From positions 942,081-1,006,080 of the forward strand of contig JAMPDC010000001.1 of assembly GCA_023665865.1 (NCBI GenBank): DNA of 64,000 nt, given 5' to 3'. The notes below the pieces were generated by a model that was given only the letters and a program-made list of their open reading frames with translations, searched no databases and was not told the origin of the DNA. The first letter of the stretch is position 1. Every line of letters starts with the position of its first letter. The position numbers and the translations under genes were made by a program. This document shows, piece after piece, positions 45,861 to 47,658 of the stretch. The DNA comes from Staphylococcus sp. GTDB lineage: Bacteria > Bacteroidota > Bacteroidia > Bacteroidales > Muribaculaceae.

Positions 45861-46760
45861 TCAATATTTCATCCTTATAGTTTTCAGGATAGCGATATCA
45901 GCTTTGATGCGAAGAATGGCGTCGTAACTTTCGAAAGCCAATGATGATTTCAGAATATTCTGCTCAAAATCAACCCCACTCCCTCCACACAATTTTTTAC
46001 CTATGGAAACCAATGAGTTATACAGACAATGACCACGGACATAGAGATAGACATTATCCTGCGTAAGTCCTTTTTGAGCGTAACGGGCCATCTCATCCTC
46101 CAGATTAAAATCGCAACTCTCTGCAACCGACCCGGCAAGCTGAGTGACAGCAGAATCAAGACGGTTCAAAAATGCTCTGCCATTTTCAAGCTCGTCACCC
46201 TTACGATATTGCAATGATATCAGAGTTTTGAACATGTCACGCGTGAAATCCGTCAGTCCGTTGCGTTCCTGATAGAGCATCAACAGAAAGGGGAGATATA
46301 GAATCCGGGAATAATCATGCAAAAAACTCACGAAATCAAAATCCGTATCTCTCCCTGTCACTTCTTCAAAAGCCTCTTGGAGCCTCTCCGCGTAGGCATA
46401 ATGATTTTCCCAAGAATATGTATAGGTCTGCAATATACCATTTTGTGCTGATATATCCTCATCAAGCATATATCTCAAATCACTGTCTATGCAAATGAAG
46501 AATTTTTGTGAAAGGTAATTGCGATATTTCAGGCATTGTGTACAACCGGTTGTACTGCTGCCACTTTCGTTTGTAGTCGCACGCAAAAATTTGTAGCGTC
46601 CGGGACGATATTTTGAAATCAATCTACTCCAGAACTCTATGTCATCCTTATCTTCGACATGAACGACTGAATCCACACGATATAACAAAGTAGAGACAGC
46701 ATGTCTTCTGGCAGCCGATTCAAAATAAGCCGATTTGCTATCATCCATCCCATCCATCAT
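45861..46760 (-). CDS. DUF4435 protein, TOPRIM-like nuclease candidate (AriB-like)
   Basis: DUF4435 proteins are TOPRIM-related; the best studied is AriB, the effector of the PARIS anti-phage system. In this 299-residue protein the TOPRIM-like residues can be placed: E36 in VVHVEDKDDIEFW, D92-x-D94 in FFICIDSDLRYM, and YSWENHYAYAE (E118-N119) typical of DUF4435. A Cys pair C73/C76 is in TTGCTQCLKYRN. The C-terminal half is helical. The ATG overlaps the stop of the ATPase gene (ATGA), so the two are co-translated. A/T-ending codons dominate, unlike the flanking genes, which suggests transfer. Confidence 0.88.
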   Translation of the reverse strand: MMDGMDDSKSAYFESAARRHAVSTLLYRVDSVVHVEDKDDIEFWSRLISKYRPGRYKFLRATTNESGSSTTGCTQCLKYRNYLSQKFFICIDSDLRYMLDEDISAQNGILQTYTYSWENHYAYAERLQEAFEEVTGRDTDFDFVSFLHDYSRILYLPFLLMLYQERNGLTDFTRDMFKTLISLQYRKGDELENGRAFLNRLDSAVTQLAGSVAESCDFNLEDEMARYAQKGLTQDNVYLYVRGHCLYNSLVSIGKKLCGGSGVDFEQNILKSSLAFESYDAILRIKADIAILKTIRMKY

Positions 46761-47533
46761 CTTAAGAGATCCTGCATGAACACAATCTTATCCTCCCATC
46801 CGTCGGCAAAAATGTTAGGAGAGTGAGTGGTAAGTATCAACTGACAGTTGGGATTAAGTTCACGCATCATTCCAAGCAGTTTGTCTTGCCAGGTGATATG
46901 CAATGAGATCTCAGGCTCATCCATAAGCAAAACATTCGGTTCCTCTTCCTGAAGAAACACAGTCATGAGAATCAACAGTATCTGCTTTTCTCCCGACGAC
47001 AGCTGATCAAGCTGAATTTTCTGGTGACTTTCATTGATAGAGAACACCAGATTGTTATTATTCCTGTCAATCATCATTTCCTTGCCAGTCTCACTGAAGA
47101 TTGAATTTACAAGTTTGAAAAACGTATCTATCCTCGCATTGATTTTTTCAGTCAACTCAGGATAATTGACCATTTTCATTCTATAGTCAAAGAAAGATGT
47201 CCCTTCCCCGTTCTGATAAAACTTATACTTCAATTCCTGGAGCAACATACTCTCACTTTTCTTTTTAACATTGGCAGGAACATCAAACGAGCGGATGTAC
47301 GTGACAGGGCTGGTGATATCAGTGCCTGACATCGATTCCGCCACAGTATTTTTCCGTGATTTCTGTCCTGAAGGATTGTAATAGTCATACATAAGATTGA
47401 GCAACGTCGTCTTTCCACAACCGTTGATACCCACAAGGATATTGACATCCTTATGAATATTATCCCAGTTGACATTGACTCTGCCCCACATCTTGCAGAC
47501 ATCAAAGCGAGCTATATATTCACATTTATCCAT
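46757..47533 (-). CDS. ABC-type AAA ATPase of an anti-phage-like pair (AriA/OLD-like)
   Basis: A compact 258-residue SMC/ABC-class ATPase. Walker A is GINGCGKT (35-42), the signature LSSGEKQ is at 178-184, Walker B with the catalytic acid is VLLMDEPE (201-208), and the H-loop is TTHSP (235-239). All are intact. The middle (about 85-175) is a helical insertion. In OLD and PARIS systems an ATPase of this class holds and controls a TOPRIM partner. This protein has no nuclease domain of its own, and the DUF4435 gene follows with a 4-bp overlap. It is shorter than the AriA proteins I know of, so the exact family is uncertain. Confidence 0.88.
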   Translation of the reverse strand: MDKCEYIARFDVCKMWGRVNVNWDNIHKDVNILVGINGCGKTTLLNLMYDYYNPSGQKSRKNTVAESMSGTDITSPVTYIRSFDVPANVKKKSESMLLQELKYKFYQNGEGTSFFDYRMKMVNYPELTEKINARIDTFFKLVNSIFSETGKEMMIDRNNNNLVFSINESHQKIQLDQLSSGEKQILLILMTVFLQEEEPNVLLMDEPEISLHITWQDKLLGMMRELNPNCQLILTTHSPNIFADGWEDKIVFMQDLLR

Positions 47534-47552: not shown

Positions 47553-47582
47553 CAAAATTACCTCTTTTTCGGTAATAAACAA
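47553..47582 (-). promoter_or_regulatory. Promoter for the ATPase/DUF4435 pair
   Basis: Minus strand TTG (47580-47582), 19 bp, TAATTTTG (47553-47560). The leader before the ATG at 47533 is only about 13 nt. Confidence 0.7.
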
Positions 47583-47658
47583 CAAACCCTTAGTCTCCGA
47601 CGTTAGAAAAATATAAATTCTCTCACGCTTTTTTCAACTTTCATCGCCCTATCTAATT

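Follow-up and report, generated by a model that had tools for sequence, protein, structure and literature searches.

In PARIS, AriB is sequestered in an AriA6:AriB3 complex, and the system is activated by Ocr-like phage proteins. The structures deposited as PDB 8ux9 and 8v45-8v49 are presumably those of the PARIS system of E. coli B185. For the mechanism in E. coli, the account used here is taken from PMC12409363 and from a commentary (PMC11455837). The detection rule for PARIS is that of Rousset 2022 (PMC9122126), in which a gene matching AAA_15 (32 bits) or AAA_21 (27 bits) adjoins a gene matching DUF4435 (27 bits); the same paper reports PARIS in 5.2% of genomes. The locus compared with these systems below is a two-gene unit in the window, the whole stretch of 64,000 nucleotides that was analysed.

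A PARIS-type gene pair

Both genes lie on the minus strand. The first, ariA-like (46757..47533), encodes a 258 aa ABC (OLD-type) ATPase of a compact form, probably the sensor that keeps AriB in check, assigned from Pfam, PADLOC and PDB matches and from its motifs; the second, ariB-like (45861..46760), encodes a 299 aa DUF4435/TOPRIM-type protein, probably a nuclease effector, assigned from Pfam, PADLOC and its residues. An earlier note on this DNA had described two genes with an ATGA overlap, and both ORFs were recovered with an overlap of 4 bp. The note had also likened this ATPase-DUF4435 couple to PARIS/OLD systems and had suggested a search with AriA, AriB and DUF4435 profiles; when this was carried out, both proteins were matched in PADLOC and in Pfam, and the solved AriA structures were matched as well. 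The ATPase scores 89.8 bits against AAA_21 and 67.8 bits against AAA_15, and its partner 72 bits against DUF4435, all above the respective cut-offs, so that with the two genes overlapping the pair is captured by the published rule.

The PADLOC models agree closely with the pair. The ATPase matches the AriA model PDLC04164 over positions 3-251 of 253 (E 4.4e-112), and its partner matches the AriB model PDLC04165 (289 model positions) over nearly its full length (E 1.4e-115). These scores are far above those for PtuA and the other PADLOC models listed, which for AriA are the best 25 of 147. A further model, PDLC02983, is matched both by the window AriB (E 2.5e-24) and by an E. coli-type AriB (E 2e-10). 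The solved structures nearest to the ATPase are the AriA entries 8ux9, 8v45 and 8v46, reached with E 1.8e-18 for 8ux9 by sequence and E 2e-32 for the AriA entries by profile. The relationship to PARIS/OLD is thus supported by the profiles, by the fact that AriA is the closest solved structure to the ATPase and, with weak statistics, by TOPRIM residues that fall into register with an E. coli-type AriB. To judge from these matches, the pair adds another PARIS-type cassette to a subfamily already modelled in PADLOC and is not an unrecognised branch.

The pair is flanked by a gene for an LPG-synthase-TM-type membrane protein and by a divergent upstream gene for a 167-aa protein, the latter without a Pfam match. 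Neither an ORF search nor a Pfam scan of the neighbours recognised a further defence gene beside the pair, no integrase or transposase was found amongst the seven Pfam-scanned proteins at the locus, and the repeats around the pair are short ones only. Elsewhere, the same genome also encodes a 532-aa AriAB fusion (L001:1441-3039; about 1784837-1786333 of G000:C1; PADLOC PDLC02982, E 1.2e-95), a second PARIS-type gene.

The two proteins have diverged together. Sixty-six homologous loci were examined for both genes, which were both present in 59, and 50 were kept for alignment, trees and residue counts. The 16 left out (L017, a duplicate, and L018, L058, L075, L078-L085, L087, L088, L090 and L110) comprised a duplicate, broken and incomplete copies, distantly related loci and a false match. 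Over the 50 retained, the pairwise identities of AriA and AriB are correlated with r = 0.96. Two of the more distant loci, L081 and L082, both from one genus, carry a DUF4435 gene with no ATPase gene within the stretch examined and may be solitary effectors. On a Parabacteroides contig (L018:710-1594), ariB is split into two ORFs and a full ariA call is absent, by decay or by assembly error.

The compact AriA

The nucleotide-binding motifs of the ATPase, which the earlier note had read as intact, are strictly conserved: Walker A (G35, N37, G38, G40, K41), the LSSGEK signature (S179, G181, E182, K183), Walker B (D205/E206) and the H-loop (H237) are invariant in 50 of the 50 AriA proteins counted. 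Residues 6-51 and 277-437 of E. coli AriA align to the window protein. The segment between them, approximately residues 52-276 from Walker A to the signature, is about 225 residues in E. coli and is represented by about 35 residues here. Since most of this segment is absent from the compact AriA, its assembly or its trigger site may differ from that of the E. coli complex, which bears on how so short a protein would detect its trigger and keep the nuclease in check.

The suggestion that the ATPase might be trimmed or belong to a distinct branch can be kept in part. The protein is about 190 residues shorter than E. coli AriA between the Walker A and signature motifs, but its length is normal for a subfamily that PADLOC already models: AriA spans 244-296 aa across 43 loci of the compact subfamily, with 281-475 aa in more distant sister loci. 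An AF2 monomer model of AriA, with a pLDDT of 58.9, was obtained from a seven-sequence alignment, as was that of AriB.

TOPRIM residues of AriB

The acidic residues E36, D92/D94 and E118, earlier taken as TOPRIM-like, are invariant together with D40 and S93 in all 50 AriB proteins counted, and E36, D40, D92, D94 and E118 are also kept in a separate set of 20 AriB proteins that includes seven from the loci left out. The characterised protein was reached by way of L114, a pair from Pseudoalteromonas with an AriB that matches 8ux9_A, the E. coli AriB, at E 6e-70. Through the L114 alignment, window E36 corresponds to E. coli AriB E26, D92 to the Asp and D94 to the Glu of D-R-E, and E118 to the Glu of S-L-E-N; hhalign of the AriB family against E. 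coli-type AriB gives the same placement of E36 and of S-x-E-N at a weak E of 0.068. In PMC12409363, the E26A mutant of E. coli AriB gives neither tRNA cleavage products nor stalled ribosomes, as compared with the wild type.

The distance to E. coli AriB is considerable. No solved AriB was found by sequence when AriB profiles were run against the PDB, one distant relative alone reaching it with E 0.059, and the E. coli-type AriB of L114 misses Pfam DUF4435 at E 0.001, whereas the window AriB matches it. The AF2 model of AriB (pLDDT 71.8, mostly 49-67 over the N-terminal 120 residues) has a strand-helix order that suits TOPRIM, and this model, with its low N-terminal pLDDT, gave no match to PDB folds at E 0.001. 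The assignment of the TOPRIM residues stands, with modest statistical support, as a reading of the alignments. Because AriB is so remote from its E. coli counterpart by profile (hhalign E 0.068), specificity for tRNA may not carry over.

Proposed mode of action

With a probability of roughly 0.7, the two genes make up an abortive-infection cassette of PARIS type with an AriA of the compact subfamily. If it works as PARIS does in E. coli, the ATP-binding AriA would hold AriB inactive. A phage product, either an anti-restriction protein or some other trigger, would then bind AriA and release AriB, which would dimerise and cut host tRNA with a two-metal TOPRIM site, so that translation and phage growth would stop. 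Sequestration, trigger, release and tRNA substrate are thus each carried over from E. coli as probable features of the compact pair.

Occurrence and transfer in the window's genus

Within the window's genus, the pair is patchy. AriB (PDLC04165) was found in four of 27 genomes and is absent in the other 23; in a sample of the family it was found in seven of 247, two of these matches being weak to moderate. A comparison of close relatives at this site, which had been proposed as a check, revealed no conservation of the pair there: only two of the 27 genomes, the window's own and G026, have it at the site, which is half of the four positive genomes. In the other two, G021 and G024, the copy is a divergent one (33-34% identity) that lies amid other genes. 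In three relatives (G001, G025 and G004) the site is bare, the flanking genes being separated by empty stretches of 127, 221 and 218 bp, and in two others (G010 and G006) it holds other genes over about 4 kb. In the rest of the genus, the flanking genes were distant from each other, were not both found, or fell outside the comparison.

The content of the site varies across the genus, a glycoside hydrolase family 2 gene (980-984 aa) occupying it at L050:1475-4417 and L051:1157-4111. A defence hotspot was considered here and dropped, the insert in G010 and G006 being this glycoside hydrolase family 2 protein, accompanied in G010 by a GNAT acetyltransferase. The G006 site also holds a 250-aa ORF.

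Identity between the window and G026 is 70% for AriA, 68% for AriB and 72% for a flanking gene, and the closeness of the first two values to the third fits an old shared copy. In a tree of the flanking gene, a group with support 92/96, less than the tool requires for a star, unites G026 with lineages that lack the pair and leaves the window outside, so that one has to assume either that the pair was lost or that it arrived twice. The nearest other relatives of the pair are on contigs of Parabacteroides, Bacteroides and Phocaeicola/Bacteroidaceae, where they lie between different genes; the neighbours of the pair in Bacteroidaceae and Tannerellaceae are unrelated. In the tree of the pair, the window groups with these nearest relatives in a clade of six loci with support 98/98.

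The composition of the pair also sets it apart. The G+C content of ariA is 40.3% and that of ariB 41.4%, as against 50-58% in five coding neighbours and, for the pair (40-41%), 54% in its surroundings in the window. The gap between pair and surroundings is at least 5 points in five of the six loci of the window clade, the exception being L016. Promoters of the Bacteroidota follow a -33/-7 consensus with the -7 box TAnnTTTG. A promoter-like element of this kind (TTTG, 22 nt, TAATTTTG; 47553..47586, minus strand) lies 19 nt before the ariA ATG. The pattern has 11 matches in the window against 0.52 expected by shuffling, and the -7 box is kept in five of six aligned homologous cassettes.

The AT-richness, the promoter box, the patchy occurrence and the unrelated neighbours elsewhere all argue for a transferred cassette, and in the window's genus the pair looks like a self-contained transferable cassette. 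The earlier note had drawn the same conclusion from a base composition richer in AT than the flanks and from a promoter belonging to the pair itself. The first is borne out and the promoter-like element supports the second, and the conclusion holds within the genus, with its four positives in 27 genomes and its three bare sites, but not for the subfamily as a whole, which eight genera of a related family possess almost without exception and mostly in synteny (see below).

Carriage by phages was sought with no match among 50,697 phage records, and viral sequence scans with the AriA and AriB of the window and with L005 and L013 as queries returned no relative. Viral contigs yielded two remote pairs and plasmid records four remote matches. 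One of the viral contigs has its remote ATPase-DUF4435 pair (L059:3775-5870) in a late-gene cluster of a Mu-like prophage, with a virion morphogenesis gene on one side and genes for the Mu I protein and gpT on the other.

Near-core retention in a related family

Counting weak matches, AriB was detected in 25 of the 295 genomes sampled from the order. One genus that had contributed three of these positives was searched whole and proved positive in eight of eight genomes, and another in three of three. In the family f106, the compact pair is present in 24 of 56 genomes, all of them in eight genera, with none in nine other genera. The counts for the eight genera are 8/8, 6/6, 1/2, 3/3, 1/1, 1/1, 2/2 and 2/2, that is, 24 of 25 genomes. 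A 25th match, a weak one in G581 (E 4e-4) that falls within a sodium/hydrogen exchanger, was left out of the count. In the one genome of these genera without the pair, G554, a contig breaks off within the DUF486 gene that would be expected to adjoin it, which leaves the absence undecided.

These compact pairs (L062-L064 and L089-L109) usually lie beside DUF486 and ruvB, both named by Pfam, or beside another gene. In 18 of the 24 a DUF486 gene is no more than about 4 kb away, in 13 ruvB comes directly after the pair, and 21 have one or the other; G540 has another gene upstream and a contig end just after ariB, and in two g224 genomes the pair is elsewhere. For 15 f106 loci the G+C content of the pair was compared with that of the surrounding DNA, and in 14 of them the difference is no more than 5 points, the exception being L103, whose ariB is 7 points higher. 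In G542, a gene for a 121-aa 23S rRNA-intervening-sequence protein (L093:1017-1382; PF05635, E 2.3e-23) lies between ariA and ariB.

Ratios of dN/dS were estimated by NG86 and were computable for a minority of genome pairs, the others being saturated. In g212 they are 0.004-0.019 for AriA and 0.023-0.048 for AriB (four of ten pairs), as compared with 0.007-0.009 for DUF486 and 0.20-0.27 for the gene on the other side. In g135 they are 0.028 for AriA (one of ten pairs) and 0.037-0.124 for AriB (three of ten), and in g226 0.10 and 0.14 for the two genes (one usable pair). All the usable pairs show purifying selection, but only for AriA in g212 is it very strong. A control search for fused AriAB gave strong matches (E < 1e-100) in two of the 56 f106 genomes, a sporadic occurrence; the other matches of that search were mostly compact AriA or unrelated ATPases with weak scores.

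The compact pair therefore behaves as a long-kept, near-core locus in eight f106 genera, which contrasts with the 5.2% occurrence reported for PARIS and is unusual for a defence gene. Patchy and mobile distribution is customary for PARIS, though it does not define the system. A search for reports of PARIS-type pairs as core genes in Bacteroidales found none in the literature covered, which excluded preprints (bioRxiv) and most subscription papers. An abortive-infection system may be able to persist for long as a core gene, or PARIS may have been domesticated here; the core status in f106 leaves room for a cellular role.

The likeliest of the alternatives takes up this point. The compact pair could be a conserved cellular checkpoint, not chiefly a defence, in which a TOPRIM RNase or nickase is held by the ATPase and set free on some internal stress, and which has spread from core lineages into genera like that of the window. 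The f106 data favour such a role: presence in 24 of 25 genomes of the eight genera, DUF486 or ruvB alongside in 21 of 24, an AriA dN/dS in g212 similar to that of DUF486 and a G+C content near that of the neighbours. There is also a parallel in the archaeal OLD-family ATPase Cran1, which is reported to have an essential cell-cycle role and apparently no antiviral one (PMC12796447). Nevertheless, the pair is missing from 23 of the 27 genomes in the window's genus and from nine f106 genera, so that there is no general need for it. The window clade, moreover, is scattered across families and sites, the dN/dS of the single usable g226 pair is higher, and remote ATPase-DUF4435 pairs occur in a Mu-like prophage and on plasmids. 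A checkpoint is accordingly an improbable reading of the pair. Domestication of the compact pair within a single Bacteroidales family, as a core ATP-gated TOPRIM switch lying next to DUF486 and ruvB in several genera, is likewise unlikely. Mobile copies such as that of the window would in that case be its ancestral defence form or escapees, and PARIS-type modules would span defence and housekeeping.

Target of the nuclease and nature of the module

A defence role of a different kind would follow if the pair acted like class 1 OLD or Gabija, an ATP-gated TOPRIM cutting DNA and not tRNA. The couple of ABC and TOPRIM domains is the same, the OLD and GajA TOPRIM enzymes cut DNA (PMC10568477), and the window AriB is remote from the E. 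coli AriB for which tRNase activity was measured. Opposed to this are the split genes, the DUF4435 partner, the lack of a GajB helicase beside the ATPase-nuclease pair, and AriA and AriB scores in PADLOC far above those of PtuA and the other models listed (for AriA, the best 25 of 147), all of which make cutting of DNA in the manner of OLD or Gabija quite doubtful. That the pair is simply a toxin-antitoxin or selfish maintenance unit, not triggered by phage, is very improbable, for whilst the two-gene operon with its own promoter box, the patchiness in the genus and the term antitoxin used for AriA by the depositors of 8v45/8v46 would suit it, loss of either gene in E. coli is non-toxic (PMC9122126) and the pair in f106 has long been retained on the chromosome under purifying selection.

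Relationship to described systems

The PARIS-type cassette proposed here is closest to the pair modelled by PADLOC PDLC04164 and PDLC04165, with similar lengths (253 and 289 positions) and no difference found. It resembles E. coli B185 PARIS in the order of its genes, an ABC ATPase followed by a DUF4435/TOPRIM gene, and in AriA, which can be aligned in its Walker A part and over the C-terminal ABC half. It departs from the E. coli system in the size of AriA (258 aa here, 464 aa in E. coli) and in an AriB that is only remotely similar, in which D94 takes the place of a Glu in the E. coli type. The fused AriAB of PADLOC PDLC02982 likewise combines ABC and DUF4435, but as a single 532-aa polypeptide of another subfamily, whereas the window pair consists of two genes. 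The ABC half is also similar to that of PtuA of Septu and retron systems (E 3e-30), where the partner is an HNH protein instead of DUF4435. Class 1 OLD and GajA of Gabija share with the pair an ABC ATPase coupled to a TOPRIM nuclease (PMC10568477). There the two activities are joined in one polypeptide, accompanied in the case of GajA by the GajB helicase, whereas in the window the ATPase and the TOPRIM-type protein are encoded by two overlapping genes, with no GajB helicase beside them.
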